64,000 nt of DNA from Limnomonas spitsbergensis (lineage: Eukaryota > Chlorophyta > Chlorophyceae > Chlamydomonadales), in the NCBI GenBank assembly GCA_037349105.1, contig JAYJMM010000121.1:1250001-1314000 (forward strand), given 5' to 3'. The translations under genes and the position numbers were made by a program. Of this stretch, positions 3,188-63,454 are shown piece by piece (within the stretch, counting starts at the first letter, position 1; every line of letters begins with the position of its first letter). The notes below the pieces were generated by a model. That model did not search any database. It saw only the letters and a program-made list of their open reading frames with translations, and was not told where the DNA came from.

Positions 3188-6100
3188 CTACCACGCCCCA
3201 ATGGCATGCTTGGTCGGCTCCTTGAACAGCTGGTAGTCCCACTTCATATCCAGGCGGAAGGGCTCGCTGATGGTCACGCCGGCGGCGGTCGACTTGGCGA
3301 TCTGGAACTTGTTCACGCTCTGCTTGTCGCGATAGTAGCACACCTGTGACAGGTAGCCGGGAGGAAGGGGGTCAAGATCAATCATCCACACCTTATGAGA
3401 GGGAAATGGCTATGGCACGATAGTAGCACACCTGTGACAGGTAGCCGGGAGGAAAGGGGGTCAAGATCAATCAATCCCACCTTCTGAGAGGTGTGATCAC
3501 CGGGTTCTATGTTCCTGCCCCCTTGCTGAGGAGAGTGGCATGGCTACACCATAGTCCTGGCTGTGCACGGTAGCTGGAATTGAGCTCTGTCATTCCCTAC
3601 CAGCACCGCGTGGCTAAGCTTTCAGGAGGGTCCAGTGGGTAAGCACCATTCTACACCTGATGAGAGGAAATTGTCACGGCGTGGATGGCGGCCCACACGA
3701 CACTGTCCTCTCAGTGGGGCACAAATGTTTTTTTGGCAAAGCCCACCCGTGTGGTCAAGGGTCGCTGCGGGCGCAGCCCCCGGAGTCACCCCGTGCCTGT
3801 CAGTCAGTCAGTCAGCTGCGGGCGCAGCCCCCGGAGTCACCCCGTGCCTGTCAGTCAGTCAGTCAGCTGCGGGTGCAGCCCCCGGAGTCACCCCGTGCCT
3901 GTCAGTCAGTCAGTCAGCTGCGGGTGCAGCCCCCGGAGTCACCCCGTGCCTGTCAGTCAGTCAGTCAGCCGCGGGTGCAGCCCCCGGAGTCACCCCGTGC
4001 CTGTCAGTCAGTCAGTCAGCCGCGGGCGCAGCCCCCGGAGTCACCCCGTGCCTGTCAGTCAGCCGCAGGCGCAGCCCCCGGAGTCACCCCGTGCCTGTAA
4101 GTCAGTCAGTCAGTCAGCCGCGGGCGCAGGCCCCGGAGTCACCCCGTGCCTGTCAGTCAGTCAGTCAGCCGCGGGCGCAGGCCCCGGAGTCACCCCGTGC
4201 CTGTCAGTCAGTCAGTCAGCTGCAGGCGCAGGCTCCGGAGTCACCCCGTGCCTGTCAGTCAGTCAGTCAGCCGCGGGCGCAGCCCCCGGAGTCACCCTGT
4301 GCCTGTCAGTCAGTCAGTCAGCTGCAGGCGCAGGCCCCGGAGTCATCCCGTGCCTGTCAGTCAGTCAGTCAGCTGCAGGCGCAGGCCCCGGAGTCACCCC
4401 GTGCCTGTCAGTCAGTCAGTCAGCCGCGGGCGCAGCCCCCGGAGTCACCCTGTGCCTGTCAGTCAGTCAGTCAGCTGCAGGCGCAGGCCCCGGAGTCACC
4501 CCGTGCCTGTCAGTCAGTCAGTCAGCCGCAGGCGCAGCCCCCGGAGTCACCCCGTGCCTGTCAGTCAGTCAGTCAGCTGCGGGCGCAGCCCCCGGAGTCA
4601 CCCCGTGCCTGTCAGTCAGTCAGTCAGCTGCGGGTGCAGCCCCCGGAGTCACCCCGTGCCTGTCAGTCAGTCAGTCAGCTGCGGGTGCAGCCCCCGGAGT
4701 CACCCCGTGCCTGTCAGTCAGTCAGTCAGCCGCGGGTGCAGCCCCCGGAGTCACCCCGTGCCTGTCAGTCAGTCAGTCAGCCGCGGGCGCAGCCCCCGGA
4801 GTCACCCCGTGCCTGTCAGTCAGCCGCAGGCGCAGCCCCCGGAGTCACCCCGTGCCTGTAAGTCAGTCAGTCAGTCAGCCGCGGGCGCAGGCCCCGGAGT
4901 CACCCCGTGCCTGTCAGTCAGTCAGTCAGCCGCGGGCGCAGGCCCCGGAGTCACCCCGTGCCTGTCAGTCAGTCAGTCAGCTGCAGGCGCAGGCTCCGGA
5001 GTCACCCCGTGCCTGTCAGTCAGTCAGTCAGCCGCGGGCGCAGCCCCCGGAGTCACCCTGTGCCTGTCAGTCAGTCAGTCAGCTGCAGGCGCAGGCCCCG
5101 GAGTCACCCCGTGCCTGTCAGTCAGTCAGTCAGCTGCAGGCGCAGGCCCCGGAGTCACCCCGTGCCTGTCAGTCAGTCAGTCAGCCGCGGGCGCAGCCCC
5201 CGGAGTCACCCTGTGCCTGTCAGTCAGTCAGTCAGCTGCAGGCGCAGGCCCCGGAGTCACCCCGTGCCTGTCAGTCAGTCAGTCAGCCGCAGGCGCAGCC
5301 CCCGGAGTCACCCCGTGCCTGTCAGTCAGTCAGTCAGCCGCGGGCGCAGCCCCCGGAGTCACCCCGTGCCTGTCAGTCAGTCAGTCAGCCGCGGGCGCAG
5401 CCCCCGGAGTCACACCGTGCCTGTCAGTCAGTCAGTCAGCCGCAGGCGCAGCCCCCGGAGTCACCCCGTGCCTGTCAGCCTGTCAGTCAGCCGCGGGCGC
5501 AGCCCCCGGAGTCACCCCGTGCCTGTCAGTCAGTCAGTCAGCCGCGGGCGCAGCCCCCGGAGTCACCCCGTGCCTGTCAGCCTGTCAGTCAGCCGCGGGC
5601 GCAGCCCCCGGAGTCTTCCCGTGCCCCCGGAGTCACCCCGTGCCCCCGGAGTCACCCCGTGCCTGTCAGTCAGTCAGTCAGTCAGCCTGTTCATTCTGGA
5701 ACATACCGGAAACTTTGTGCGCTTCAGCGCAAATCCGCCGACTACATTTACAAAGGTTATTCCTGACGGACCTCAAAGGCTGAGGTGCAGACATGAGAAA
5801 CTCACCTCCCAAGGCTGGATCTCTCAGCGCATACGCTGTGAGGTGTCACGCGTCGGCTGCAACTTTGCGTCTCTATTTCAATTCAATGCGCATAAATACC
5901 AACACGCACTTGCCCAGCGATATAATTGCAGCAAATGTTTTCAAATCCTGCAAAATGGAGACAGGGTTTGCATGGGGTCCAGGTGACTCCGTCCGCACCT
6001 GCACCTGCCCTCCGAAAAGTCGCATACCCGACTCCTCTGCCGTTTTTCGTGCTGCGCAGCAGCACCTCTGACTACCGGTACTTGTTCCGTTTGCTTGTAT

Positions 6101-8621
6101 ATGACAGGTATGGGATCAACAAAATAGTAATCTAGGTGGATGCAAGCTTGCATTCCTGGGTGACAAATAGCCACGGGAAGGCGGTGAACACGATCATGAT
6201 CCGGGTGCGTCCAAGCCTGCAAGCGATTGGACCCCCCTCCCATCCTCCTCCACCTCCTCCTCCTCTGCTCCCCAGTCCCCACTCATGCTTCCACCCCACC
6301 ACATAGAGCCAACATGCTCAGCTACCCCTCAGCTCCTCCCAGTGATATTCTTGTTAGCGATTTATTGCCCTAGGGCGATTAAATATTATTTAAGAAGGGC
6401 ACAATTGACTCCCTGATCGCCAAGATCACACATTTTCACACTGGTAATTCCACACTTTTTCACACCAGTACGCATTTGAAATGATTCCTAGATATGAAAA
6501 GAAATTCCTCCTCTCCCACCTTGAGGGCGTCGTGGATAAGGGCAACAGCCTCCTCCTCGCTCATGTCGTCGCGTTGTCGCTCGCGGAACAGCGGCCGGGC
6601 GAGCTGGCTGGCGAAGCCTGCATGGAAGGAGAGGGGGGCGATGAGGTGGCGAGTAACAGGGGAGATCCATCGGAGAGAGGCGGGGCAAATGCAACCGCAT
6701 GGACCGTGAGGTGGAGATACATACTAGGGCAGGAGAGGGACAATTTAGTAAGGGGCAGTCAACCAACTACCAGGTCTCACACCTTGGGAGGTGTGAATCC
6801 CTTCTGACCTCAAACTCGATCAGTACAAGAAATGTTAAGCCTGTGACATGACCTGGAGAGTGGACTACGAGCATACCGGAGGCTCCACAACCACAACCAT
6901 CCCACCATCACCCAACTCTATCGCCCCGTCCCAATGCCCCATCATCACTCGACAGCCCGTGGATCCCCAACTCGTTCCCACCCACATCAGGCCCCCTCCC
7001 ATTCACACCCTTGTCTCACTACCCACCTCCCTCCCATTCACACCCTCCTCCCACTATCCCCCCCCCCCCTCCCACCATCAGTCCTCCCTCTTACCCTGCC
7101 CCCTACCTCCCCCCCAACTGACACAATGCTCCCCCCCCCTCCCTCCCATTCACACCATCCTCTCACTACCCCCCCCCCCCCTCCCATTCACACCATCCTC
7201 CCACTACCCCCCTCCCTCCCATTCACACCATCCTCTCACTACCCCCCCCCTCCCATTCACACCATCCTCCCACTACCCCCCCCCTCCCATTCACACCATC
7301 CTCCCACTACCCCCCTCCCTCCCATTCACACCATCCTCCCACTACCCCCCTCCCTCCCATTCACACCATCCTCCCACTACCCCCTCCCTCCCATTCACAC
7401 CATCCTCCCACTCCCCCCCTCCCCCCATTCACACCATCCTCCCACTATCCCCCCCCTCCCATTCACACCATCCTCCCACCACCCCCTCCCTCCCATTCAC
7501 ACCATCCTCCCACTACCCCCCTCCCTCCCATTCACACCATCCTCCCACTACCCCCCTCCCTCCCATTCACACCATCCTCCCACGACCCCTCCCCCCCATT
7601 CACACCATCCTCCCACTATCCCCCCTCTCCCATTCACACCATCCTCCCACTACCCCCCCCCCCCTCCCATTCACACCATCCTCCCCCCCCCCCCCCCCCC
7701 CCCCCCCCATCCCCATCCCCTCCCATTCATACCATCCCCCCCCTCCCCCTCCCATTCACACCATCCTCCCACTACCCCCCCCCCCTCCCACCATCAGTCC
7801 TCCCTCTTACCCTGCCCCCTACCTCCCCCCCAACTGACACAATGCTCCCACCCTCTCCCACCCAAACCGCACCCCGCCCATCCTCCTCCCCACCCTCCTC
7901 CTCCCCCTCACCTGTTGTGACGTGCGAGTCAACGTAGTGCGTGCCCTGCATGGTCACCATGCCGAGGAAGGGCACTCCACCCACCACCAGGGAGTTCCAC
8001 AAAGGGTTCATCTTGTTGCGCCGGTTGTACATCACACGGTTCAGGTACGAGTACACCTGGAAGCAAAAAAGTGGGGACGTACATCATACGGCTGAGGTGC
8101 ACATGCATATGAAAGTTTGAAAATTGTATGGTTGTACATCACCGGACAGAGACACAAGTACACCATGACATATCATGCTGTACAACATGTCCACGAGGTA
8201 CGAGCATACCAGGATGTACACATTACAGAGAAAAAGCTGCCAACAGCTTGAGTCGCTTCGTTTTTCATGATTATGAATCAATCATTTACATCCAATTAAA
8301 ATGAAGCATCAGCATGGTTGCATACCGGTATGGCAATGCTGGGGTACGAGGACACTTGGAAATAAGTTTCAGTGCTGCACATCAAGGGCTGTGGTAGAGA
8401 GACATCACAACATGTGAAATAAACCTGCTCAACACCCCACACTTCATTCAGGGGGTGTCAACTGAATCCTATCATTCAAGACAGGGCCTATTCAGGGGGT
8501 ATCAACTGAATCCTATAATTGAAGACAGGGCATTGAGGACCTATTCATTTTGCAAGCCCGTTCACACCTGAGGGGGAGTCAGCTGGATCCCGTCATCGGT
8601 GCAGTAGTCATCCGTAGTGAG
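3188..8621 (-). CDS. PSMB4: 20S proteasome subunit beta type-4, C-terminal half (4 exons)
   Basis: Non-catalytic beta subunit of the 20S proteasome core (PSMB4; PBG1 in plants). Four minus-strand exons join in phase: 8621-8568 (LTTDDYCTDDGIQLTPPQ; 5' edge approximate), 8056-7912 (VYSYLNRVMYNRRNKMNPLW, then LVVGG, GTHYVDSHVTT), 6617-6520 (GFASQLARPLFRE, MSEEEAVALIHDALK) and 3343-3188 (VCYYRDKQSVNKFQIAK, GVTISEPF, ending AIGAW and TAG). All inner junctions are AG/GT. About 150 residues are recovered, matching the family's C-terminal half including the YNRRNK, HVTTGF and YRDKxxVNKFQIAK blocks. The N-terminal half, with the TGTSV-like first strands, is not found upstream, where a Gln-rich gene begins within about 250 bases. 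The locus is therefore 5'-truncated, interrupted or misassembled. The large introns hold the 51-bp and C-rich arrays. Confidence 0.88.
3416..3485 (-). repeat. duplicated acceptor edge of the last proteasome exon
   Basis: About 70 bases repeat 3330-3395 nearly base for base, including the AG acceptor, the first codons (VCYY...) of the last PSMB4 exon and the pyrimidine-rich tract upstream on the minus strand. The copy lies at the 3' side of the intron and cannot continue the reading frame, so it is a decoy 3' splice site about 85 bases before the real one. Confidence 0.8.
3765..5690. repeat. 51-bp minisatellite with higher-order structure
   Basis: About 37 copies of a 51-bp unit: three to four GTCA repeats, then CAGCCGCGGGCGCAGCCCCC, then GGAGTCACCCCGTGCCT. 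Because 51 is a multiple of 3, very long frames stay open on the plus strand; they are not genes. Unit variants recur in the same order: a unique CCTGTAAGTCAG variant at about 4097 reappears at about 4858, so a block of about 761 bp was duplicated. The array lies in the last intron of PSMB4. Confidence 0.95.
5685..6075 (+). repeat. dispersed repeat, copy 1 (about 390 bp)
   Basis: Clearly related to 11616-12035. Shared blocks include TTCTGGAAC, ACCTCAAAGGC(T/C)GAGGTGCAGA, ATGAGAAACTC, AAGGCTGGATC, and a tail with GGGTTTGCATGGGGTCCAGG and GCTGCGCAGCAGCACCTCTGA. There is no intact protein and no visible terminal repeats. Probably a mobile-element or pseudogene remnant; this copy sits in a PSMB4 intron. 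Confidence 0.75.
6985..7830. repeat. C-rich array (minus strand G-rich), about 31-34 bp unit
   Basis: About 22 copies of a unit built around CCATTCACACCATCCTCCCA plus a run of C and CCTCCC, broken by a pure poly-C tract at about 7684-7708. The flanks at about 7070-7135 and 7780-7850 are near-identical to each other (ACCATCAGTCCTCCCTCTTA, then ACTGACACAATGCTCCC), so the array is bracketed by a direct repeat. It lies in a PSMB4 intron; the sense strand of that gene is G-rich here. Confidence 0.93.
8077..8540 (-). repeat. decoy exon edges in the proteasome intron between 8057 and 8567
   Basis: Degraded copies of both neighbouring exon edges. Copies of the acceptor edge of exon 8056-7912 (plus-strand form GGTACGAGTACACCTGGAAG) appear at about 8190-8216 and 8341-8366, with related TACATCA-CGG pieces at about 8077-8160. 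Copies of the donor edge of exon 8621-8568 (plus-strand form GAGGGGGAGTCAGCTGGATCC) appear at about 8451-8480 and 8492-8520 as CAGGGGGT(G/A)TCAACTGAATCC. Confidence 0.75.
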
Positions 8622-9541: not shown

Positions 9542-9790
9542 GAAATTCGACCCCAATCTAAAACCATATTTACCATACTACGAGCATATAATTGATCAAA
9601 ACCCCAACGAGTAGCAGAAAAACGTAAAATATATAATTGTTTACTGCTACCCGGGGATAAAGCCGTAGCGGATAAAGCACCTGCAATAACTAAACCAAAG
9701 GGTAATGTTTTGACTCCCCAAGGTATAAATAAAAAAATACCTGATAAAAGAGCCGATGATTCTCTAAAGCGCACTGCGGCCCTTCACCTA
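9542..9790 (-). pseudogene. nad5: nuclear copy of mitochondrial nad5 (3' part)
   Basis: AT-rich segment unlike its neighbours. On the minus strand it reads SSALLSGIFLFIPWGVKTLP, then GLVIAGALSATALSPG and RWGFDQLYARSMVN, ending LDWGRISW. The hydrophobic helices and the (K/R)W-FD-(L/V)Y block match the C-terminal region of NADH dehydrogenase subunit 5, and codon use is strongly A/T-ending. Only about 75 codons remain, cut off at both sides: a NUMT. It merges directly into the Gln-rich exon, so organelle DNA may supply the acceptor region there. Identification as nad5 is by family resemblance read by eye. Confidence 0.6.
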
Positions 9791-26068: not shown

Positions 26069-29000
26069 ATGGCAGTTGTAAACCCAGCTCCTGAAAAAAT
26101 ACCGCGTCCCAACTCCCAATGTTTGCAGCTTCGCAGCCAGGGTGATGGGCTTCGAGAAATTGAAACGGTGCGAACCTACTCAAGCGATCGATCGACCGGA
26201 TCGACGCTACATAGATTCATAAAACAACCGGGAGAGAAAAATGTAGTGACCCTATCACACTTTTTGGAAAACCCGTCAAAAACTGACTTGTCCCCTGGTT
26301 CCAGGCTGATGCGGCCGTTGGAAATGCTCAAGCTTACATCCGCGCCCCGGGCCAAGCAGGATGCCAGGCAGCTCAAACGCTGTCCTAGCAGTGGTCGTGT
26401 GCAAGCCGTCAAGGCTCAACACGCCCGACCAACATCAAGGTACGCCATCCTCAACGCACAACAATGACAACATGGTCCACTTGGGTAAAAGGAGGGTACT
26501 GGGCAGGCATTCAAGGCGCAACACCCTCGGCCAGCATCAAGGTAGGCCATCCTCAACGCACAACAATGACAACATGGTCCACTTGGGCAAAAGGAGGGTA
26601 CTGGGCAGGCATTCAAGGCGCAACACCCTCGGCCAGCATCAAGGTAGGCCATCCTCAACGCACAACAATGACAACATGGTCCACTTGGGCAAAAGGAGGG
26701 CACTGGGCAGGCATTCAAGGCGCAACACCCTCGGCCAGCATCAAGGTAGGCCATCAACGCACAACAATGACAACATGGTCCACTTGGGCAAAAGGAGGGC
26801 ACTGGGCAGGCATTCAAGGCGCAACACCCTCGGCCAGCGTCAAGGTAGGCCATCAACGCACAACATGGTCTCCCTGATCCACGCACCTGCTCGTGTGTTT
26901 ATTTCTTCATGGTCCACTCGGGCAGAACTGAGGTCCTAGGCAGGCATCCAAGGCTCAACACGCTCAACCAACATCTAGGTCTAGGCCATCAGCGCACAAC
27001 ATGGTCCAGTTGGGCAGGATAAGGGTACTGGGCCGTCGGCGTGTGCAGGCAGGCAAGGCATGTCATGGTTTAAGCAGGCTCCCTAGCAGGGGTCGTGGGC
27101 AAGTTGTCCAGGCGCAGCATGTCTGGACACTATCTGGGTAGGCACTCGCTGCAAACATGGTCCACTTGGGCAAATGGAGGGTGCCAACTCCGTTGGCAAG
27201 GCTCAACATGCCTAGCCACCATCGAGTTAGGCTAGCAACTAATGCACACCATGATCTGGATGGGTGAAATAAAGGTGTTCCTGTTCATTTGTATCACCTT
27301 GCACCTTTGACGCAGCACGTTTTAACCCTCCCCCCCTAGGTCGCCCAACATGGGCCGGGCGGTGGCGGCAGCTTTGTCAGCGTACCGTGGTGCCCCGGCT
27401 GCTGGCCGCTCCGGCCTTTATGAGGTAGAGCATAGCTCAGACTCCATAAAGGCATCGACTGCGGAGGAAAACTGGTGCGTGGACGGGGGCAGAGCTGATA
27501 GGGGCAGAGCTGATTATAGGGGTTGCGTGCGAGCCGCTACCGTGGTGCCTGGCTGCTGGTCGCTCTGGCCTTCACGAGGTATAGCATAGCTCAGACTCCA
27601 TCAAGGCATCGACTGCGGAGGGAAACTGGCGCGTTGACAGGGGCAAAGCTGGGTTTAGAGGTAATGTGCTAACCTCGGTGACCCTGCTGCTGGCCCGTCC
27701 GGCCTTCATGAGGTGGAGCACAGCTCAGACTCCATGAGGGTATCGACAGCTGAGGGAAACTGGTGCGTGGATGGGGGCAGAGCATGGTGTTAATTCACCT
27801 CCATCCATGTGACACAGCTCCTGGGCGCGTGGGCCCCTTACTCCTTTTAAATTTCGGATGTTTGCTAGCCGCGGTGACCCATCTCCCGTCCACCCTGGCC
27901 TTAATGAGTTGCAGCATAGCTCTCCCTCTATGAAGACTTCTACTGAGGAGGAAGAGTGGTGCGTGGGCAGGGACAGAGCTGGGCTTAGCGGATGTGTGCG
28001 AGCCGCGGTGACCTGGCGACCAGCTGCTCTAGCCTCCATGAGGTGGAGCTTAGCTCAGACCCCATGAAGGCATTGACCGCGAGAGAAAAGTGGTGTATGG
28101 ACAGGGGCAAAGGCGCATACCGTAGCTGATTTAGATGTGTGAGTCACGGTGCCCTGTATCGTGACGGTCTTGGCTTAGAAAGAAAGAAAGCTACGCCCAA
28201 TTAGGGCGTGGAGGTTAAGGAACCAGAGCAGCTTGGGGCTGAAGCCACATCTGCGCCGTTACCATAAGGCAAGAAGAAAGAAGCAACTCCCTCACCGCGG
28301 TTTCCTCTTGCTTAAATAAGATAGAGCGTAGCTGACCCTCGATTAACGCCTTGATCAGTGTTTATTTTTTCGGCTACCAGTCCACCTTCGGCAGGCCGCC
28401 CCGCAGCCGCCGAAGGCTGGATTGAGGCCAAACCTGTACCAGCCTACAACTAGTAGCCAAAGCAGTATGGCTGGCCAGAAATGGGGCTGTCGGCTAAAGG
28501 CCGGAGTGTAGCTGACATATAGCTGAAAGACAAAAAAGAAACGCTGGCCTTGACTGCGGAGGAAAACTGGTGGGTGGACAGGGTTGCTGATTCTTAGGGA
28601 TTTTACGAAAACTGGTGGGTGGATAGGGTTGCTGATTCTTAGGGTTTTACGAAAACTGGTGGGTGGATTAACTGGTGGGTGGATTAACTGGTGGGTGGAC
28701 AGGGTTGCTGATTCTTAGGGATTTTACATACTGGTACTGCGGACCTCTGTCTGCCGGTCGCTCTCGCCTTGATCAGGTGCAGCATAGCTATTTTTCTAGG
28801 GAGGTCTGGTCCGTGGAAGAAAACTGGTGAGTGGGCAGGGGCTGAGCCGTCAGGGGCAGACGTGACTTTAAAGGTTGTGTGCAAGCCGTTACCGCGGAGC
28901 CCCGGTTTCCAGCTGCTCCGGCCTTGATGAGGTTGAGCGTATCTCTGTGTTGAAGAGGGTCTTGACCACAGAGGAAAACTGGTGAGTGGATTGTGGCTGA

Positions 29001-41802: not shown

Positions 41803-44800
41803 ACATGGATGTTATTGCTGCTGATGCTGCTGCTGACATGGATGTTCTTGCTGCTGCTGCTGCAGGTACAGTTTCGGCCTGTTTGGTCGCCCGGATCAAC
41901 CAACCTCACCCGCAGCAACAGCCACCAGCTCTGCTGCTCCCGCTGCTGCTGGAGCTGGTGCTGCTAGTGGGGTTGGGGGTGCAGCTGCTGCTCCTGGCTC
42001 CTCTGTCAAAACCTCAGGGAGCATGGGCCGCCGCCTGCTATCCAATATCAGTATGCCGTTGAGACCCAAGCCAACACCGCCACCGCCGCCACCCAAGACA
42101 TTGGTGAGCAAGGCAGGGGAGGGGGTGGACTCAGGATCAACTGTCCCCACTGCTGTTGTTGCTGCTGTTGCTCCAGGGTAAAGTCACCTCCAGCACACCA
42201 ACCCTGCAGCGTTCTGGCTGCTACATCTATCCCTGCTGCTGTTGCTTTTGTTGCGGCTGTTGCTGTTGCGGCTGTTGTTGCATCAAGGCAATGCTCTCTT
42301 AACAATACCCCCTGCCAAGCCGAACCTGCAACTCTCTGGCTGTTACTGCTGCCCCTACAGCTGTTGCTGATGTTTATGTTGCTGCTGTTGCTGCTTTAGG
42401 GTAAATCTACCTCTGCCAAGCCAAACCTGCAACGCTCTGGCTGGTACTGCTGTCCCTACAGCTGTCGTTGTTGCTGCTGATGTTGCTGATGTTGTTGTTG
42501 CTGTTGTTGCGCCAGTTTAAAGCTACTTCTGCCAAGCCGAACCTGCAACGCTCTGGCTGTTACTCTGGGCTGGTGGGATCGTACCGCTCCCAAGAGGGAG
42601 ACCCGTGTAGTACTGAGGCAGGCCCATCTTGTACCCCACTGACTGAGGAGGAACGGCAAAAGGTGTGTTTCGTTAGAATTGTAGATAGGGTCTGGTGTTT
42701 AGGGATATCATACTCAATGCTAAGGCGATAGAAGATGAGTGACTCACAGACACGTGCAGTACTGAGGCAGGCCCGTTCTGTACCCCACTGACTGAGGAAG
42801 AGCGGCAAAATGTGTGTTCCTTAACCCTAAAATCCTAAACCATAAACCCTGAAAGCCCATGCTGCGCTCCACTGACTGAGGAATAGCGGCAAAAGGTTTG
42901 CTCCGTTTTTTTGTAAGGGTGCACGTTCTGCTTCAAATTCTGAATCCAAACGGTGGCAGCAGGAGAGTAGGTCGAACACGTGCAATTCTGAGGCGCACCC
43001 GTCCTGCACTGACCAAAGAGGAATGACAAAAGGTGTCGGGTTTTGTTCAGACTGCAATGCTCTGGGTACGCCCTCCGGCTTTGGGTGCATTATTTTCAGG
43101 CTTAAAAGAAAGGGGCGGGATTGCTCCCTTTTTAGGTTGGGATATACGGTATTCGTCGCTGAGGCAGTACAGGATGAGTTAATGACCTTACACCTGTGGG
43201 CCCTGCTGAAGCTGAGGCAGTACAAGTTGGGTGATGCAGACAAGTGCAATACTGAGGGAGGCCTATCATGCGCACTGCCTCTTGACTGGCTAACTGCCTC
43301 TTGAACGGCTAATTTGCCTCCTGAACGACTAACTGCTTCTTGAACGCCTGATAAAGCTGAGGGAGGCCTGTCATGCGCACTGCCTCTTGACAGGGGGTAC
43401 ACGGGAAACTGGTCTGTCCAATAAGGCAGCCCTCGCGGCCGAGCCCTTTTGAGCAGGGCCTGGAGGCGTCATGTCTGTAGCTTGTGATTCATGCCGGCTC
43501 TCATTCTCCTCCCGCTGCCCTTTTAACGTGCAAGTGGCCCTGCTGAAAGGCTGGCTGGTGTGATATATTATGCTGTTGGACATCATGGCTGATCTGATAT
43601 ATTATGCTGGTGGATCCCATGCGTGCAGGTGGCCTAGGCTCAGTTGGCCCTGCTAAATCGACTGGCTGGTGCACATCATGGCTGATCTGATCTATTATGC
43701 TGGTGGATCCCATGCGTGCAGGTGGCCTAGGCTCAGTTGGCCCTGCTAAATCGACTGGCTGGTGCACATCATGGCTGATCTGATCTATTATGCTGGTGGA
43801 TCCCATGCGTGCAGGTGGCCTAGGCTCAGTTGGCCCTGCTAAATCGACTGGCTGGTGCACATCATGGCTGATCTGATCTATTATGCTGGTGGATCCCATG
43901 CGTGCAGGTGGCCTAGGCTCAGTTGGCCCTGCTAAATCGGCTGGCTGGTGCACATCATGGCTGATCTGATCTATTATGCTGGTGGATCCCATGCGTGCAG
44001 GTGGCCTAGGCTCAGTTGGCCTTGCTAAATCGGCTGGCTGGTGCACATCATGGCTGATCTGATCTATTATGCTGGTGGATCCCATGCGTGCAGGTGGCCT
44101 AGGCTCAGTTGACCCTGCTAAATCGACTGGCTGGTGCACATCATGGCTGATCTGATCTATTATGCTGGTGGATCCCATGCGTGCAGGTGGCCTAGGCTCA
44201 GTTGACCCTGCTAAATCGACTGGCTGGTGCACATCATGGCTGATCTGATCTATTATGCTGGTGGATCCCATGCGTGCAGGTGGCCTAGGCTCAGTTGGCC
44301 CTGCTAAATCGGCTGGCTGGTGCACATCATGGCTGATCTGATCTATTATGCTGGTGGATCCCATGCGTGCAGGTGGCCTAGGCTCAGTTGACCCTGCTAA
44401 ATCGACTGGCTGGTGCACATCATGGCTGATCTGATCTATTATGCTGGTGGATCCCATGCGTGCAGGTGGCCTAGGCTCAGTTGGCCCTGCTAAATCGACT
44501 GGCTGGTGCACATCATGGCTGATCTGATCTATTATGCTGGTGGATCCCATGCGTGCAGGTGGCCTAGGCTCAGTTGACCCTGCTAAATCGACTGGCTGGT
44601 GCACATCATGGCTGATCTGATCTATTATGCTGGTGGATCCCATGCGTGCAGGTGGCCTAGGCTCAGTTGGCCCTGCAAAATCGGCTGGCTGGTGCACATC
44701 ATGGCTGATCTGATCTATTATGCTGGTGGATTCCATGCGTGCAGGTGGCCTAGGCTCAGTTTGCCCTGCGAAATCGGCTGACTGGTGCACATCATGGCTG

Positions 44801-47337
44801 ATCTGATCTATTATGCTGGTGGATTCCATGCGTGCAGGTGGCCTAGGCTCAGTTGACCCTGCTAAATCGACTGGCTGGTGCACATCATGGCTGATCTGAT
44901 CTATTATGCTGGTGGATCCCATGCGTGCAGGTGGCCTAGGCTCAGTTGGCCCTGCGAAATCGGCTGACTGGTGCACATCATGGCTGATCTGATCTATTAT
45001 GCTGGTGGATTCCATGCGTGCAGGTGGCCTAGGCTCAGTTGACCCTGCTAAATCGGCTGGCTGGTGCACATCATGGCTGATCTGATCTATTATGCTGGTG
45101 GATCCCATGCGTGGATTTTAGGTGGAGGCGGGGCATGCTCAGTTGGCCCTGCTGAGAGGCTCACTGGTCAATCTCATAATAATTCTGCCCCTGCTTCCTG
45201 TAGGTGGACGCAGAGCATGCTCAGTCTGTCCAGCTGAAAGGCTGCCTGGTGCACATCATGGCTGTTATGTTGTAGATAAAGCTGGTGGATCCCATCCTCA
45301 GTTGGCTCAGCTGAAGGGCTGGCTGTTGTGCATCATACCGGATACTTAATCTTTCCCTGCTCCTTTTAGGTGGAGGCTGAGCAAGCTCAGTTGGCTCAGC
45401 TGAAAGGCTGGCTGGTGGACACCAAGGCCCCGTGGAAGCAACACTCCGCGCGCATGGTGCAGCAGGTAGGAGGAGGAGGAGGATATGATACAATACATTA
45501 TGATACGATATGATACTGAAGGATAGACATGTCACGTGCCTCGACAGAAATGGGCGGCTTACTTAATCCACGCACTTGTTTGCCTATCTTTTATTTATTT
45601 TATTGGAGGGAGGTAACAGGACACGACATAATGCAAAACAATACGGCATGGTACGGCACGATGCAACACAGGTGTATCTGGATTGTAGTGCCAAGATGTG
45701 GCTGATACGGCATGATACAGCACAATGCGGCACAGGTTTAGCCGGTTGTGCTACCAAAGTAGCGAGATACGGCATATACGACTCAGTTTTTTGCGGAATT
45801 GTACTGTCAAATGACATTGCAGAATTGTACTGCCAATCACATTGCGGAATCGTACTGCCAAATTACTGCAACGATACGGCATGGACTTTGCAGATTGTTC
45901 CACCATGCATCCTTGACAGCGGGGACGAAGAGGAGGACGATGACAAGGTGTCAGCAGCAGCGGGCAGCACCGCCCCTCCCTTTACGCCCTCTTGACTGCT
46001 CCCTCTCACCGCCGTTTCCGACTGCCCCAATCCCCAACCTCTGCCCAATCTCACTATTCCCTCCTGGTTGGGCATTCCTGATAAAGGGGATGTGTTCGAG
46101 GAAGAGGACGGCGATATTGTAAGTTGTCAGCATCAGCAGGTAGCAACACTGACCCCTCCCTGAATTACTGCTCCATTCCCTGACTTCTGCCCCCTCCCTC
46201 TAGGGCATCCCTCTATCTCACTGCCCTATTCCCTCACCTCTGCCCCCTTACCTCTCCCTCTTCCACTGTCCCCTCCCTCTAGGGTATCCTTGACAAAGAG
46301 GACGAGGAGGAGGACGGTGATAAGGTGCCAGCAACAGCAGGCAGCGCCGCCCCTCCCAAACGACCTCGGAAGGTTCTCATGACTCAGAGCATGGCAAGGT
46401 AGGAGCCCCTGGTAGGAATGCATCATTGTGTTGTGTTTACTGTTTCAGTCAGCTGTCTGGGCTTTGTTTGAGTGGCAGCACCGCCCCTCCCAAACGACCT
46501 CGGGAGGTCCTCATGACTCAGAGCATGGCAAGGTAGGAGGGCATATTTTTTGTGTGTATCATTTTAGTCAGGTGTCTGGGCTTTGTTTGAGTGGGAGCAA
46601 CGTCCCTCCCACACCGGTGAGGGCCCTGATGACCAAGGCAGCACAATCCGGCAAAACCTGTTTCGTATCCAGAGCGGATAGCTGCTCTGCTCCGGATAAT
46701 GAAATACTGCTCCGAGCCTCCGATACAGCCATGGTAACGGCGCTGACGCGGCCCAGGCCCATGTCGCGTCGTTTCCTTAATCCTCACGCCCCTGCGGGGC
46801 GCAGTTTTCTTCTTTCTTTCTTCCGACACGGCTCACCAGGCAGGAAAAAAGTGGGGACTGAGTAGGGGCCTGAAGACTCAGAGCATGGCAACGTGGGACG
46901 TGCATCATTTGGCTTCCTTCCCCGATAAGTTAGGCGGGCAGCACCACCCTTCCTAAACAGCCTTTGAAGCTGCTAGTGAGCTGCTAGTGACTGTAAGGCA
47001 AAGTAGGGCTGCCAGATTTAGTAGTTTGGATTTGACCATGCATGCTGCTGGGACAGTGCTGGTGTTGTCGTTGGCTGTGCTGCATGCTGGCACGCTGCTG
47101 ATGCTGCTGGTAGTGCGTGCTACGATGACGGTGTTGGTGCTGCTGGGGGTGCTGTCGTGTGATTTTGACCACGCATCCGGCAAGTTGGGACTGCCGAATA
47201 ATTGATGTCCACCCCTCTGATAAAAATTACGGATCTAAGTGATCTTTAGACTTGACGCTGGAATTTGAATCTGAGGCATGGACTCTCTCTCCCCCGCGTC
47301 TCCTTTCAGGCCCAAAGGACTCATGGGACTGATGTGA
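31014..47337 (+). CDS. large Ala/Ser/Thr-rich protein, exons 5-16 (about 1,225 aa)
   Basis: Twelve plus-strand exons join with consistent phase: 31013-31175, 31647-33740, 36116-36217, 37241-37388, 38732-39116, 40549-40639, 40969-41039, 41866-42103, 42516-42662, 45370-45465, 46283-46398 and 47310-47337 (TGA). All junctions are AG/GT. In order: a short ordered start (DHDIRGLLDDPRILK, then GRLRLLERKLSNNSR); a 698-codon exon of imperfect repeats (three of about 60 residues around AAYTAAVVxDxxIVTALAD, then about 22-residue DASRIPHASS units, then SPxxDxARxMA units); a WSKRMMRVMSG block; PPPPPP; a TEEERQKVEAEQAQLAQLKG helix; an acidic stretch; a PPKRPRK nuclear-localisation-like motif; and the C-terminus MARPKGLMGLM. 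No family recognised; probably a nuclear or scaffold protein. ATG 31014 may be internal, because a strong acceptor directly precedes it. Confidence 0.72.
31206..31646 (+). repeat. three degraded copies of exon 6's acceptor edge
   Basis: Copies at about 31210-31275, 31337-31425 and 31504-31570 repeat the pyrimidine tract, AG, and first roughly 60 bases of exon 6 (GCCGTCTGCGCCGACTGGAA, AAGCTAAGCAACAACAGCCG). Spacing is about 150 bp. Each copy has indels or stops that break the frame; only the fourth, at 31647, keeps it. Confidence 0.88.
33741..35870 (+). repeat. G-rich minisatellite derived from exon 6's donor edge
   Basis: About four longer units (around 150-180 bp) then about eighteen units of about 85-90 bp. 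The core GTGGCAACTGGAGCTGGGGG, AGACAGGAGGT, TTTGGGGTTCGGGTGGGAGC copies the exon 6 end and donor (GTGGCAGCTGGAGCTGGGTG, GGCAGGAG|GTGTGTGG, GGTGGGAGCAGG). Each unit carries an uninterrupted run of 8 to 17 G. Long open frames on both strands here are array artefacts. Intronic; the sense strand is G-rich. Confidence 0.92.
35985..36115 (+). repeat. two copies of exon 7's acceptor edge
   Basis: At 35998 (CAG|GTGGGCCTGCC) and 36047 (CAG|GTGGGCTTGCCTGATGG, then TGTGGAGAT) before the true exon at 36116. The second copy is near-perfect for about 28 bases and then diverges. Confidence 0.85.
36218..37240 (+). repeat. copies of exon 7's donor edge and exon 8's acceptor edge
   Basis: Donor-edge copies (CTGCCTCC-TTAC-GTAAGACT type) lie at about 36303-36330, 36410-36440, 36490-36550 (including GGACGTCGATG-ATGGATTAGAC), 36625-36650, 36725-36760 and 36835-36860, alternating with a repeated GGGGTTGAGGAAGGTGTTGA spacer. 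Acceptor-edge copies of exon 8 lie at 36975-37075 (TCCCGGCCATTATCGAGGCA) and 37118-37195 (CAG|GAAAATGAGTCTTATCGGCC). Confidence 0.88.
37389..38731 (+). repeat. about nine copies of exon 8's donor edge and one of exon 9's acceptor edge
   Basis: The exon 8 end (GATGACGCCAC, AACACCCC-CGGGCTGAGGGC, GAGACGACAGCGTTGCCTGC, AG|GTAGGAT) recurs about every 90-110 bp at about 37460, 37551, 37643, 37733, 37827, 37936, 38078, 38164, 38258 and 38364. Most retain GCAG|GTAGG. At 38563-38660 the exon 9 start is copied (GAGATGACCTCCACCCAGTC) with its own CCCAG acceptor; it keeps high similarity for about 130 bases. Confidence 0.9.
39125..39690 (+). repeat. 19-bp tandem array
   Basis: About 29 copies of TTTATGTACATCTTGAGGG, starting within 10 bases of exon 9's donor. 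After it, three copies of the exon 9 donor edge (GAGCAAGAG, ATGTCTGG(T/C)CG(A/C)GG|GTGAGG) lie at about 39675-39710, 39848-39895 and 39905-39940. Confidence 0.92.
40165..40548 (+). repeat. GCT/GTT triplet-rich tract before exon 10
   Basis: Imperfect GCTGCTGTT(GAT) triplets ending at the acceptor of exon 10 (TGTTACAG). Frames are open but out of phase with the exon. Confidence 0.8.
40855..41290 (+). repeat. copies of exon 11's edges
   Basis: Acceptor-edge copy at 40862-40910 (GTCAG|GCGCAGCCGTTTGAGGTG, GGCAGCACACCTGCC) before the true exon at 40969. Donor-edge copies lie at about 41118-41150 (TTGATGTTAAGGAAGGCCTC, GTTGCAG) and 41256-41290 (ATATTCAGG, CTCGTTGCAG). Confidence 0.85.
41325..41864 (+). 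repeat. CTG triplet array with ACATGGATGTTATTG interruptions
   Basis: Runs of (GCT)4-13 separated by GACATGGATGTTATT about twelve times, ending at the acceptor of exon 12. Purely triplet, so all frames are open (Ala/Asp-rich or Leu-rich); none is in the phase of exon 12. An intronic trinucleotide repeat, expected to be length-variable. Confidence 0.92.
42165..42515 (+). repeat. three copies of exon 13's acceptor edge
   Basis: At about 42174-42235, 42310-42355 and 42397-42455: GGTAAATCTACCTCTGCCAA, GCC-AACCTGCAACGCTCTGG, each followed by Leu/Ala-type triplet sequence. The true exon at 42516 follows a GTTGTTGCGCCAG acceptor. Confidence 0.87.
42700..43400 (+). repeat. four to five copies of exon 13's donor edge
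   Basis: Copies of GTACTGAGGCAGGCCC, CCACTGACTGAGGAGGAACG, GCAAAAG|GTGTG at about 42752-42820, 42850-42900, 42975-43040, 43235-43275 and 43345-43390. Those at 42811 and 43034 keep a GTGTG donor. Confidence 0.85.
43530..45369 (+). repeat. 93-bp satellite amplified from exon 14's acceptor edge
   Basis: About 16 near-identical 93-bp units (43585-45115), plus diverged single copies at 43529, 45121, 45203 and about 45290. The unit GTGCAG|GTGGCCTAGGCT, CAGTTGGCCCTGCTAAATCG, ACTGGCTGGTGCACATCATG copies the exon 14 start (TAG|GTGGAGGCTGAGCAAGCT, CAGTTGGCTCAGCTGAAAGG, CTGGCTGGTGGACACC). The unit is divisible by 3 and leaves a 535-residue minus-strand frame open, which is an artefact. Confidence 0.93.
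45880..46282 (+). repeat. two copies of exon 15's acceptor region
   Basis: At 45895-45985 (TTTGCAG|ATTGTTCCACC, ATCCTTGACAGCGGGGACGA, GAGGAGGACGATGACAAG) and 46065-46160 (GGCATTCCTGATAAAGGGGA, GAAGAGGACGGCGATATT). Each is long enough to read as an acidic exon, but only the third copy (46283) has both edges and the phase. Confidence 0.82.
46399..46950 (+). repeat. copies of exon 15's donor edge
   Basis: At 46470-46540 a near-perfect copy of the last roughly 65 bases of exon 15 with donor (CGCCCCTCCCAAACGACCTC, GACTCAGAGCATGGCAAG|GTAGGAG). Weaker copies lie at about 46590-46640, 46865-46895 and 46935-46975. Confidence 0.88.
46955..47183 (-). pseudogene. ankyrin-gene fragment inside the last intron
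   Basis: The minus strand reads HDSTPSSTNTVIVARTTSSI, SVPACSTANDNTSTVPAAC, matching the Ser/Thr-rich N-terminal part of the gene at 50782-52125. DNA similarity is about 90% over some 125 bases (47041-47165 against 51790-51915). A small piece of a paralogue lies antisense within the large plus-strand gene. Confidence 0.8.
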
Positions 47338-48230: not shown

Positions 48231-48411
48231 GGGTGTTGATGTGCAGCCACAAGGGCTTGGCAGCGTGGTCAGGGCAAGGGGTGAACAATAGGAGGCTCTG
48301 GTTTTGCTTTACATTCTGTTTCTGCGTTATTGGACTGCATGCACGAGTTGTGCCAGCCATTGAAGGATTTAATATGCATGGTGTTTGTCAATCACAATTA
48401 ATAAACAGTTA

Positions 48412-48620: not shown

Positions 48621-48623
48621 GTC

Positions 48624-49060: not shown

Positions 49061-49164
49061 TACCACTGGACCATTCCCCCTCTGACAAGGCTTGTGCTCA
49101 CACATCAGTCAAAGCCTTTCCTATGACTTGATGTTTGCCAACGTGGCTGAGCTTAAGTTACGCA

Positions 49165-49690: not shown

Positions 49691-50781
49691 CAAAGCCTTT
49701 AAAGGGAATACAATTTGTGGTCTATCCAAGTTTACCACCTTCAAATGAGAGGATTCCGTTCCCTCCACCTTGTGCCCTCAGATGACTTGATTGATTTGGT
49801 TACATCTCTGGACCAAACTTAATAGGACAGGGTGGGCCACGTGGGCGCCCACTTTATGTCTGCCAACGTGGCCGAGTTTTTTTAAGCAGGGCCCAGAGAT
49901 GTATTGTAATTATAGCGATTATAGATTTCGTTTCGGTTGGAGGGTTTGTTTTTTGGTAGCTGGCTGCAAAGCTTCTGACAAGAACACGCACGACTTCCCA
50001 GATGCGAACAGCCTTTACACTGTCTCTGATAATGGCGATATGTCTCAAAGGACAGGCGAATCTGCCTATCGCAGAGCAGAATCGGAAGGCTCAAGGTCTA
50101 GATACCAAAAACCAAAACCCGAAACTTTCACCCAAAACATGATCCATAATCGCTTTCACGTGGGCGCCCAGCTGTTTCGATGTATGCTAGGTGGCCGAGC
50201 TTTATTTAAGCAGGGCCCAGAGGTGTCACGTTATGACGTGGGCGCCCAGCTGCTTTTAAGTGTCAATGACATTACACCTCTGGGCCATGCACAAAAAGGC
50301 TCGGCTGCAAAAAGGCTCGGCCAGCTGTTTTGACGAGTGCCAGGTGGCCATACAACGTTGTCATCAGATACTATGCTGACACGAAATTCAATTTCAGTCA
50401 AACACAATGGACTTGGTTGCTGGGGAGCAAGATAGGGATTACCGGTGGGCGTCAGGACACGCAGGCCCACATGACCAGACGACCAACCACTACGAGGCAT
50501 CAGGGACGACGGCACCGTAATTTAAATACTACCACTGCTAACAACATCTTGAACCTATTTCGGTATATGATACATCCTAGTGATAAAACCATCCTTAAAA
50601 AGTGATGAAGAAAATAATATGCGATCCACTATAGTCGTGGATCCAGAGTTAGGGACGTAGAATCTTAGAACCAGTGTCTTTGATCCAGATTTTTTTAGAT
50701 CCAGAGTGGAAGATCTACCGATCAAGAGTCCTGGATCCAGAGATGTGGATCCGGATGTCATGGATCTGACGTCGTGGATCC

Positions 50782-54910: not shown

Positions 54911-55180
54911 AGTGTGGCATGGGCTTCTTTTAGAAAGGCTGAATCCAGGCATGACTAGCTGCCAGGCAGGCAGGCACTAGGCATTCCCCCTACACCGCCA
55001 TCGATGTCACCAGCCGCTCCTTAGTGCAACATCATGTCACTGACATAACACCTCTGGGCCCTGCTCAAAAAAGCTCGGCCACGAGGGCGGCCAACTGTCC
55101 CGTTGGAAGAAAAGAAACTGAAGGTAAGAGGGAAAGAAGGAGAAGAACACAAAGGAGAAAGAAATGCTCCTTAGTGCAGC

Positions 55181-59800: not shown

Positions 59801-62800
59801 GGCTGCTGGGTCAACGGCATGTGAGTGGGTCAGTAGGGAGTAAGTCTCAACCACGCTGATCATTCAAGCTGTGTCTGCTGGGTCAGCGGCAGGTGAGTGG
59901 GTGGCAGGTGGGTGACATGTGAGGGGTGGTGCGAGACACTGGCGAGTGGCAGTAGGGTCGATGGCTGGTGGTTTATGCCAGGTTGGGTGGTATTGGGTGC
60001 GTGACAGGTGGGTGAGTGAGTGAGTGGATGGTGGTTAGGTTGCGGTTGTGTGGGTGTTGGGTGCCTGATGGGTGGGTGTCACAAGGTAGGGTGAGTGATG
60101 CGTGGGGGTGGCTGAGTGTAGGTGGGCAGGTGACAGATTGGTGGGTGGCAGGTAGGTGACAGTCCGGCAGTTGTGTGGATGGGCATTTGTGTGTATGGGC
60201 ATTTGTGTGGATGGGCATTTGTGTGGATGGGCATTTGTGTGGATGGGCATTTGTGTGGATGGGCATTTGTGTGGATGGGCATTTGTGTGGATGGGCATTT
60301 GTGTGGATGGGCATTTGTGTGGATGTGCATTTGTGTGGATGGGCATTTGTGTGGATGGGCATTTGTGTGGATGGGCATTTGTGTGGATGTGCAGTTGTGT
60401 GGATGGGCATTTGTGTGGATGGACATTTGTGTGGATGGGCAGTTGTGCACTGTGCAGTCCACCTCATTGTATGGAGGTCAATGGCTCCCGCAACCTCCAC
60501 CTAACCTCTGCAGGTACCGTTTGACCACAACCTCCATCTGCGCTGCGAGACGGCGCACGAGGCACAAATCTTTAAGACATGATCCTTTAATCCACACGTA
60601 ATCGTTTTAAACATTTGATCGACCCTCCTGACCTCTGCAGGCCCTGTTGACTGCAACCTCCATCTGCGCTGCAAGATGCCACACAAGAAAAAAAGGAAAT
60701 TGACACGCTCTTTCAATCTGCATTGTTTGCAATCATATTTTAACAACCTTCCTGATCTCTGCAGGTACCTCTTGACCACAACACCCTCTTACGCTGCGAG
60801 ATTGCGCACAACAAAAAACATATCATCGACAGTCTCTTTTAATCTGTTTTTTTTGCACCGGTAATTATGTTTGATCGGCACTTTTGACACCAGCAGGTAC
60901 TTTCTGACCGCACCCCCCACTTGTGCTGCAAGATTGCGCACACGAAAAAAAACATACCGGTGTAATTGACAGGATCTCTTAATCTGCATTGTTTGTAATT
61001 ATATTTGATCAACCTTCCTGATCTCTGCAGGTACCTCTTGACCGTGCCCGCCAACTTCCGCTGCGCCCGTAGGGCACATAAGGCAAAAATCACATTGAGA
61101 GGTTCGTCTCCTCAAAATGTTTGTCATTATATTTGATCGACCCACCTGAAACTCCCTAGTTTTCCTCGACTGCACCTCCTGCAGGTCCCCTTTGACCGCA
61201 ACCTCCACCTACGCTGCGAGATTGCTCACAAGGACATGTACATTCAGGAAAATGACACCAGCATCCGCCGCTCCGTCCCGCTCCCCAACCACCTCCTGGC
61301 GCTGCTGTACAACCCGCTGACGGCGCAGGCTATCGACAGCATCCACGCAGCGGCTGCCGCCGCTGCCGCTGGCGGTGGGCCGATGATGTCCGTCGGCCCC
61401 GTCCCGGGTTCAGGGTCCAGTCAGCAACAACAACATCATGGGATGGTGGCGATGCCCGGCGGTGTCGGCGGCATGCCGATGGGCCTGCCGCTCGGCTCCT
61501 TTGCGAGCATGCACGGCCGCGGAATGGGGTCGGCGAACGTGGTCCGGGCGTTTGTGGGCGCGGCCGGCGGGGCCCAGAGGCTCAACTTCGCACCCACTGT
61601 GTGAGTGTCCGGCTTTAGAGTACAGGGCAGTGTAAGTGTCGGGGTTTAGGGTCCAGGGCAGGTTCCGTTGTTTTATAGGTTTCTGGTTTCTTTGTTTCTG
61701 TTGCAAAGAACGTCACTGTATGATTGTCCAGGTTAAGGGTACAGGACACTGTGAGTGTCCAGGTTCAGGGTACAGGACACTGTGAGTGTCCAGGTTTGGG
61801 GTACAGGACACTGTGAGTGTCTGTTTAGGGTACAGGGCAGTGTGTGAGTGTCCAGGTTTAGGGTACAGGGCAGTGTGTGAGTGTCCAGGTTAAGGGTCCA
61901 CGCACCTGCCGACTCGTCTGCTGCTACACCTGCTGACTCGCCTGCTGACTGACATGCTGGCTCATATGTATGATCTGCTGACTTACATGCTGACGCACCT
62001 GATGACTCGCATGCTGGCTCGTCGGCTGCCACGCCTGCTGACGCACCTGATGACGCACCTGATGACTCGCATGCTGGCTCGTCGGCTGCCACGCCTGCTG
62101 ACGCACCTGATGACGCACCTGATGACTCGCATGCTGGCTCGTCGGCTGCCACGCCTGCTGACGCACCTGATGACGCACCTGATGACTCGCATGCTGGCTC
62201 GTCGGCTGCCACGCCTACTGACGCACCTGATGACGCACCTGATGACTCGCATGCTGGCTCGTCGGCTGCCACGCCTGCTGACGCACCTGATGACTCACCG
62301 GCTGACATACCTGTTGACTTATCTGCTAACCCACCTTCTGATTCACATGCTGACTCACCTGCTGACTAACCTCCTTCCGGTTGCCTGCTGACTCACCTCC
62401 TTCCGGTTGCCTGCTGACTCACCTCCTTCCGGTTGCCTGCTGACTCACCTCCTTCCGGTTGCCTGCTGACTCACCTCCTTCCGGTTGCCTGCTGACTCAC
62501 CTCCTTCCGGTTGCCTGCTGACTCACCTCCTTCCGGTTGCCTGCTGACTCACCTCCTTCCGGTTGCCTGCTGACTCACCTACCTCTGGTTGCCTGCTGAC
62601 TCACCTCCTGCTGGTTGCCTGTTTTCCCTTGCAGCAATAGGGGTGACCAGCCACCCTGCAACCTTCTGTTCATCGGCAACCTGACTGACCATGTCGCCGC
62701 TGACTCACCTGCTGACTCACCTGCTGACTCACTTGCTGACTCGCCTGCTGACTAAATGCTGACTCACCTGCTGATTCATATGCTGACTCGCCTGCTGTCT

Positions 62801-63454
62801 CTTGCCTGTCTTCCCTCGCAGCAATAAGGGTGACCAGCCACCTTGCAACACCTTGTTCATCGGTAACTTGAGCGACCATGTCGCTGACGACGAGCTGATG
62901 GCGTTGTTTGAGGTGAGACACGGGAATGCCGGACCTCCTGAAATGGAAATAGGCGATACTGAAAGAGGGATAGTGGAAGCTGAGCTGCCTTCCATTCCCG
63001 CTGCCTTTGCTGATGGCGTTGTTCTAGGTTAGTGACAGAAACGTTCAACCAACAAAAGTATAATATAAATAGTACTAATTTAATTCAGAAATAGATGCGG
63101 ATCTGCCTCATGTCCCTGCTTTATTTTTTGGCAAAACCAATGAGGAGCTGACCGTTGAGCCGCAGTTCCCCCAGGCTTGCAGTAGAGGGTCCATCTGACA
63201 GCTGGTGGTCACCTCTTCTCTTCCCTTACTGATTTCCAGTTGCTGTCACTGCCTTGCACAGTTCCTGATCTCCCGTGTTATCACTGCCTTGCCGGGTTCC
63301 TGATTTCACGGTTCTTTATTTTCCGGATCCTGATTTTCCGGTTCCTGATTGCCCGGTTCCTGATTTCCCGGTGCTGTCACTGCCTTGCCCGCTGCTCTCA
63401 CTTCAGGTCCAACCTGGGTTCAAGCAGCTGAAGCTTGTGAGGGGCCCCAAGCAG
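56805..63454 (+). CDS. RNA-binding protein with two RRMs (RBPMS/scw1-like), 3' end beyond window
   Basis: Six plus-strand exons join in phase: 56805-57088, 58153-58225, 58574-58660, 61185-61600, 62822-62912 and 63407-63454, with AG/GT junctions. RRM1 spans exons 1-4: TRTIFVTG (RNP2), FPLDVRDRELHNLLRFFPGY, QGFALFDTS (RNP1) and HLRCEIAHKDMYI. After a linker rich in Ala, Gly, Met and His (QQQQHHGM, PGGVGGMPMGLPLG), RRM2 starts with NKGDQPPCNTLFIGNLSDHV, ADDELMALFE and QPGFKQLKLVRGPKQ; the rest lies to the right. This domain layout matches the plant and fungal RBPMS/couch-potato/scw1-like family, which binds mRNA. Residues 1-90 are low-complexity. The ATG at 56805 is chosen because an in-frame TGA lies 45 bases upstream. 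Confidence 0.87.
57478..58090. repeat. 25-bp tandem array in intron 1 of the RRM gene
   Basis: About 24 copies of TTCCATGCAGTGTCCTGTAT plus GGATC, the first few more diverged. Rotates through frames; not coding. Confidence 0.94.
58661..59585 (+). repeat. 33-bp G-rich array starting at exon 3's donor
   Basis: About 27 copies of GTGGGTGGATGGGTGGGTGG, CACGCGGCAAGCG. The donor itself (CAG|GTGTGTGGATGGGTGGGT) is the start of the first unit, so the 5' splice site lies within the repeat. The unit is divisible by 3, giving long frames on both strands that are not genes. A looser GGTGGGTG-rich region continues to about 60130. Confidence 0.94.
60168..60450. repeat. 16-bp tandem array
   Basis: About 17 copies of GTGTGGATGGGCATTT in intron 3 of the RRM gene. 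Confidence 0.94.
60505..61184 (+). repeat. five copies of exon 4's acceptor edge
   Basis: Copies start at 60514, 60641, 60765, 60897 and 61031 before the true exon at 61185; spacing is 124-154 bp. Each has a CTCTGCAG-like acceptor, then GTACCTCTTGACCACAAC-type sequence and CTGCGCTGCGAGA. The first (VPFDHNLHLRCETAHE) is the most intact but runs into TGA after 22 codons. None has a usable donor in frame. Confidence 0.92.
61601..61900 (+). repeat. about eight copies of exon 4's donor edge
   Basis: The exon 4 end and intron start (CCCACTGT|GTGAGTGTCC, TTTAGAGTACAGGGCAGTG) recur every 30-40 bp as ACACTGTGAGTGTCCAGG, GGTACAGG. Most copies keep GTGAGTGT, a strong donor. Confidence 0.88.
61905..62632. 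repeat. 60-bp and 26-bp arrays in intron 4
   Basis: Five to six copies of a 60-bp unit (GCACCTGATGACTCGCATGC, TGGCTCGTCGGCTGCCACGC, CTGCTGAC...) to about 62300, then about ten copies of TTGCCTGCTGACTCACCTCC, TTCCGG (26 bp). Both share a CTGCTGACTCACCT core. Confidence 0.92.
62635..62755 (+). pseudogene. truncated duplicate of exon 5 with its own acceptor
   Basis: After CCCTTGCAG the sequence reads, in the correct phase, NRGDQPPCNLLFIGNLTDHV and then runs into CTGACTCACCT repeats (AADSPADSPADSLADSPAD) and a TAA at 62753. It copies the first 60-odd bases of the true exon 5 at 62822 with a few substitutions. If spliced from exon 4 it would end the protein inside RRM2. Confidence 0.88.

Follow-up and report, generated by a model that had tools for sequence, protein, structure and literature searches.

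The stretch of DNA considered here, hereafter the window, comprises 64,000 nucleotides of the green alga Limnomonas spitsbergensis (contig JAYJMM010000121.1, positions 1,250,001 to 1,314,000; G000:C121:1250001-1314000 in our numbering) and belongs to a eukaryotic assembly of 260.2 Mb in 124 contigs (GCA_037349105.1). It carries three multi-exon genes whose introns contain copies of the adjoining exon edges together with their splice sites: PSMB4 on the minus strand, and a gene between 26 and 47 kb and an RBPMS-like RRM gene on the plus strand. The closest solved relative of the PSMB4 fragment is chain u of 7qve (8.4e-31; next chains 1.4e-18), an entry which we take to be the spinach proteasome. 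The first three exon joins of the RRM gene match the alignment to RBPMS2, and its exons 58154-58225, 61185-61598 and 62823-62912, each submitted singly, returned no Pfam family. The exons of the 26-47 kb gene were defined by reading frame only.

Forty-one exon edges were placed in the window: the PSMB4 and RRM genes contribute 16 and the 26-47 kb gene the other 25. When the intron side was searched over 2.5 kb for copies scoring at least 26, 21 of the 41 edges yielded one or more, 97 copies in total, and the inverted control at all 41 edges never scored above 24. The PSMB4 and RRM genes account for 5 of 16 edges (9 copies) and the 26-47 kb gene for 16 of 25 (88 copies, mostly in arrays). Copied exon ends, donor included, are found in the downstream intron close to its start, and copies of the acceptor and exon start just upstream of the exon. 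An earlier, sequence-only reading of this DNA had described such serial copies in the introns, had estimated them at more than 50 and had proposed self-alignment with shuffled controls; the pattern and the estimate are both borne out, and of the 45-bp queries from 27 window edges, 11 outscored each of 100 dinucleotide shuffles as well as all introns belonging to the other genes.

Ten of the 16 PSMB4 and RRM edges are backed by alignment to solved relatives, and six (8056, 61601, 62822, 62913, 63407 and 63455) come from reading frame and splice consensus only. The 25 edges of the 26-47 kb gene were placed by eye and picked partly for visible copies, so that the less biased evidence comes from outside the window. 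For this purpose 38 coding segments of the proteasome family were taken from 19 places outside the window, all but one of them on other contigs. Splice consensus, phase and, at several of them, frame reading allowed an edge to be placed at 60 of their 76 ends; the remaining 16, which are gene starts or ends or ambiguous, were omitted. Two placements (a GC donor in locus L031 and an acceptor in L032) were a matter of judgement. The 60 proteasome edges and the 16 window edges of PSMB4 and the RRM gene form the conserved-gene set of 76 edges. Edge placement was not blind, since the copies had already been viewed both in the window and at the proteasome loci; the test on the proteasome segments as returned, 14/76 against 0/76, is independent of it.

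In that test (score at least 27), the last 45 bp of a segment matched the 3' flank in 7/38 and the first 45 bp the 5' flank in 7/38, while wrong-side and inverted pairings each gave 0/76 and segment middles were copied in 1/76. In the conserved-gene set, a correct-side copy within 1 kb was present at 15 of the 76 edges at a score of at least 28 (proteasome 10/60, window 5/16), against 0/76 for the inverted control (Fisher p = 3e-5) and 0/60 for the other side of the exon (p = 1e-4). Exon-edge queries against the introns of unrelated loci reached the same score in 4/1520. Looser thresholds gave 15 edges (score 26) and 16 (score 24) on the correct side, and 1/76 and 3/76 inverted. Both the 5' and the 3' intron boundaries are affected (donors 5/40, acceptors 10/36). 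The 10 proteasome matches are spread over 7 of the 19 loci, with three in L031 and one old copy shared by the paralogues L026 and L027. As copies occur at proteasome loci on other contigs, they are a property of the genome and not of the window; exon-edge copies are real and widespread in this genome.

The structure of the copies was examined after pooling the 60 proteasome and the 41 window edges, the by-eye edges thus being included. At 30 edges, 103 copies reach the splice site and their alignments continue through the boundary; in the printed alignments long stretches of the intron side are shared as well. The exon part of the copies is 0.81 identical and the intron part 0.71 (donor) or 0.74 (acceptor), and the exon part is the more identical at 25 of 29 untied edges, as expected if decay affects the copy alone within the exon but both members of the repeat within the intron. 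The nearest copy lies at a median spacing of about 150 bp (range 59-770; at most 300 bp at 27/30 edges). In 38 copies from 16 edges, near-identical array copies included, mismatch against the exon is 0.120 at codon position 1, 0.138 at position 2 and 0.224 at position 3. This fits neutral decay of a copy whose source exon is under constraint: positions 1 and 2 are about equal, and the value is higher at position 3, where the exon itself also changes. Alternative, tandemly duplicated coding exons would be another source of such copies, and some copies are indeed open, for example 60514-60566 and both acceptor-side copies of L027. However, 12/38 contain an in-frame stop and 16/38 an indel, frame and amino acids are not conserved, positions 1 and 2 show the divergence to be predicted for a neutral copy (0.12/0.14/0.22) and many copies contain only part of an exon, so that this explanation is scarcely credible.

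The sequence-only reading had also offered the copies as a selected set of decoy splice sites, which would tune splicing. The retention of splice motifs is what speaks for it, with a wholly intact GT in 0.85 and AG in 0.75 of the copies (edge-weighted) against 0.69-0.70 for exon dinucleotides. Compared with the adjacent 12 exon bases (0.82 identical at donors, 0.87 at acceptors), however, the splice bases at 0.87-0.88 are not significantly better kept (p = 0.084 for 14 donor edges and 0.78 for 16 acceptor edges), although a weak effect at donors may exist. Moreover, the master GT or AG is itself fixed, which raises the apparent retention, and the rest of the copy decays neutrally. The decoy proposal is not supported by this comparison and is considered very improbable.

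The frequency of copies at exon edges was compared with that inside introns. The control comprised 19 introns with both edges placed, from 13 loci and including window introns, sampled as 45-mers every 15 bp. A direct copy within 1 kb was found for 0.43-0.45 of the intron 45-mers when pooled, large arrays dominating, and for 15/76 exon edges; as locus averages, the values are 0.200-0.205 for intron 45-mers and 0.188 for exon edges. Outside arrays, 0.113-0.147 of 734 intron 45-mers have a direct copy against 12/71 edges (p = 0.18 and 0.60, Fisher values that are approximate because the 45-mers overlap and represent only 19 introns in 13 loci). This intron-only comparison is the fairest one made, and exon edges are not privileged by it. 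The surrounding DNA is itself rich in repeats: tandem arrays of at least 2.5 copies make up 26% of the 264 kb around the window, and after their masking 212 direct repeats less than 500 bp apart were found against 4 inverted ones. Random non-array 45-mers of the 264 kb have a direct copy in 0.126 and an inverted copy in 0.008 of cases (score at least 30). For all noncoding sequence at the proteasome loci the corresponding value is 0.049 outside arrays and 0.123 with arrays (score at least 27).

A simulation of tandem duplication blind to splice sites, with constrained exons, length-balancing deletions and our own assumed parameters, gave edge/intron ratios of 0.85-1.09 in four settings of 24 replicates each. 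A fourfold boost at the boundary raised the ratio to 1.59, and acceptance of only 30% of the boundary-crossing events lowered it to 0.33; a first simulation of 6 replicates had given 0.83-0.96 in three settings. At 0.006-0.01 duplication starts per site per substitution per site, copies appeared at 0.15-0.23 of the simulated edges, close to the observed rate of 0.20. The description of the copies as more regular than random tandem duplication thus finds no support, as intron 45-mers are copied as often and the splice-blind simulation gives the same ratio.

These comparisons bear equally on the proposal that a splice-site-linked process adds exon-edge copies and that introns grow outward from exons. 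Such growth would explain the polar placement of the copies, the excess of the edges over all noncoding sequence at the proteasome loci and the drop of similarity with distance. Similarity is indeed negatively correlated with distance at 10 of 11 multi-copy edges, and the nearest copy is more similar than farther ones at 11/17 edges; the decay with distance claimed earlier therefore stands as a tendency, to which the RRM array is opposite (+1.0). Yet intron segments are copied equally often, a fourfold boundary boost would give a ratio of 1.59, and polar placement results from any tandem duplication crossing an edge. Furthermore, differences from the exon are common to several array units at 26440, 37389, 33741 and L027, which shows that several of them arose from other copies rather than separately from the exon. 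Outward growth is judged very improbable. What remains of that earlier proposal is tandem duplication across exon edges, which adds intron sequence and is kin to the duplication models of intron gain; growth specifically from exons is not supported.

The explanation favoured here, with a probability of about 0.86, is that of minisatellite-type tandem duplications which sometimes cross splice sites, the exon unit being held by selection. Short tandem duplications would arise all along the noncoding DNA of the genome; where a unit spans a splice site, two exon edges would result, one of them remaining in the mRNA under selection and the other becoming intron and decaying at the neutral rate, and later array turnover would add further copies. 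This explanation is built on the observed direct orientation and correct side of the copies, their neutral pattern of decay, their intron-like frequency and the paralogue difference in unit number described below; we infer in addition that the exon-proximal splice site is the one used and that the molecular step would be replication slippage or unequal exchange. The 51-bp array in a PSMB4 intron (37 units), which has no exon-edge copy at the threshold used, represents the same process where no splice site is involved, and the array of 16.6 units of 93 bp at 43572-45113 is a fresh minisatellite whose unit includes the exon-start copy of edge 45370.

As judged by eye, the paralogues L026 and L027 have a common acceptor-side copy with the same exon break point and the same intron continuation, and the shared junction places this duplication before the paralogue split; L027 has one further unit, so that unit number differs between the paralogues (by eye; one haplotype). 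The same duplication process also affects coding sequence, as in the long exon from 31647, which sits in one 758-codon open frame. All nine repeat periods reported inside it by Tandem Repeats Finder (TRF), in rows that partly overlap, are divisible by three, and the periods of intron and intergenic arrays include 16, 19, 26, 34, 88, 91 and 160. Duplications in coding sequence thus appear to survive only if they keep the frame, which is the selective filter that the tandem-duplication explanation requires.

Several points weigh against the favoured explanation. Outside arrays the edges appear about threefold enriched when set against all noncoding sequence at the proteasome loci, and the donor GT, intact in 0.85 of copies against 0.69 for exon dinucleotides, leaves a small unexplained excess. 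The first simulation gave a ratio of 0.32 at its lowest duplication rate, where few events occurred. Exon-middle copies were observed in 1/76 and the simulation predicts 0.035-0.123, a shortfall suggesting that the simulation may overstate how often, or how far, duplications extend into exons. For the intron parts, the identities are raw values of the fitted alignments, uncorrected for chance identity, and the use of the exons is itself predicted from homology and frame. A wider extension, which is regarded as doubtful, would make splice-straddling minisatellites a major continuing route of intron growth in this lineage (about one-fifth of conserved edges), sometimes supplying new splice sites or exons; exon edges could then serve as slowly changing references that date growth copy by copy, and weak selection on the donor GT may exist.

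Tandem repeats spanning exon-intron boundaries have been described in amphioxus Adh3 and globin genes as 'mirages', which occur at 5' and 3' boundaries, in many cases with AG/GT, and vary in unit number (PMC3087553). They are reported for Adh3, TnC, globin and PGBD5 genes (PMC3087553, PMC3902484), those of the lancelet PGBD5 gene being given as imperfect (PMC3902484). The likeness to the present case lies in the repeat unit across the exon-intron boundary (here 30 edges and 103 copies, with arrays at 26440, 33741, 37389 and 45370), in the involvement of both intron ends and in the frequent retention of AG and GT. Splicing at the amphioxus mirages was examined by reverse-transcription PCR, which suggests that it is undisturbed. 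The anatomy of the present case is that of the mirages, and no new mechanism is indicated; what is new is the green-algal host, the apparent frequency of about one-fifth of conserved splice edges (15/76) and the many old and degraded copies.

In a potato RdRp gene, a tandem duplication across an intron-exon boundary supplied the splice signals and made a new intron, whereas in the present genome existing introns gain sequence (PMC4974935). The AGGT tandem-duplication model of intron gain shares the mutational step, a short tandem duplication, but duplicates an exonic AGGT segment that provides both sites of a new intron, whereas existing splice sites are duplicated here. Introner elements, finally, are near-identical introns dispersed over many genes; the comparison made here covers exon-edge queries against introns of other loci, with 4/1520 at a score of at least 28. 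A green-algal description of the pattern was not found in a literature search covering open-licence papers and a few phrasings. Each splice-straddling duplication is a datable fossil of intron lengthening, since the exon edge changes slowly and the intronic copy decays, and with a copy at about one-fifth of conserved edges the contribution of tandem duplication to intron growth could be measured directly. The genome would likewise allow study of how the spliceosome handles nearby duplicate sites and how frequently duplications give rise to new introns or exons, and would extend the mirages beyond the cephalochordates.

The features of the window are collected in Table 1. The copy at the PSMB4 edge 3343 lies within a direct repeat of 88-bp spacing (3330-3402 / 3418-3491; 93% identical). 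Some of the copies of edge 26440 belong to an array of 102-bp units at 26409-26865, and a ninth match to this edge (28873-28889) lies past the next exon. Near the exon at 23.1 kb, for which copies had also been claimed, repeats are present within 23147-23568 (inspection only).

Table 1. Exon edges, their copies and tandem arrays in the window (window coordinates)
Feature	Span	Strand	Copies or repeats
PSMB4 last-exon acceptor, edge 3343	3343..3431	-	upstream copy 3409-3431
PSMB4 intron array, 51 bp x 37	3767..5663	.	tandem repeat inside intron
PSMB4 acceptor, edge 8056	8056..8163	-	copy 8130-8163; edge placed by frame
26-47 kb gene, donor edge 26440	26380..27226	+	eight downstream copies inside its intron
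Exon 27340-27424	27340..28931	+	serial copies of 3' end and donor: 27538-27578, 27677-27712, 28890-28931
Acceptor edge 31647	31205..31706	+	three upstream exon-start copies: 31205-31250, 31339-31397, 31516-31548
Nine TRF rows inside exon from 31647	31884..33713	+	periods 162, 162, 51, 66, 51, 60, 15, 15, 21
Donor edge 33741	33681..35946	+	21 downstream copies; arrays with units of ~88-160 bp
Exon 36116-36217	36048..36841	+	acceptor copy 36048-36073 upstream; four donor-side copies downstream (36410-36841)
Exon 37241-37388	37018..38430	+	acceptor-side copies 37018-37040, 37119-37178; nine donor-side copies (37476-38430)
Acceptor edge 38732	38564..38790	+	copy 38564-38620
Donor edge 42663	42604..43280	+	four copies downstream
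Acceptor edge 45370	43535..45465	+	20 upstream copies, most in the 93-bp x 16.6 array
Exon 46283-46398, start	45468..46969	+	upstream matches 45468-45483, 45909-45965, 46097-46140
Exon 46283-46398, end	45468..46969	+	downstream matches 46474-46532, 46875-46891, 46937-46969
RBPMS-like RRM gene, true acceptor 61185	60488..61233	+	five exon-start matches upstream
RRM exon-start matches	60488-60503, 60514-60566, 60642-60687, 60768-60811, 60905-60942	+	
RRM acceptor 62822	62635..62881	+	copy 62635-62694; placed by frame
RRM donor 62913	62898..63023	+	short copy 63009-63023; placed by frame

Some further observations were made at the proteasome loci and in the DNA around the genes. Duplicated proteasome genes occur as pairs on different contigs (L026/L027, L033/L034 and L029/L041), with exons about 88-90% identical in the best blocks; the three pairs are either paralogues or the result of a past segment or genome duplication. 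A probable GC-AG intron was seen by eye in the proteasome gene of L031 at about position 1556 (gene strand). Within the window, a fragment of NADH-ubiquinone oxidoreductase chain 5 (nad5-like) at 9637-9783 on the minus strand (33 residues aligned, E 1.5e-9) matches chain V of 9f5x, presumably from Chlamydomonas, and is apparently a nuclear mitochondrial insertion. A 459-codon open frame at 50785-52161 on the minus strand encodes ankyrin repeats (Ank_2, 2.5e-48) and contains a tandem repeat whose period, 99, is divisible by three. A non-tandem direct repeat, 93% identical, is present at 47039-47159 and 51789-51909, 4.75 kb apart, and mutually similar short repeats are dispersed at 48161-49416, 50261-50305 and 55035-55079, possibly representing a mobile element. 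In the 264 kb stretch, a 3026-codon open frame lies on the minus strand at 71147-80224 (L003-L004).

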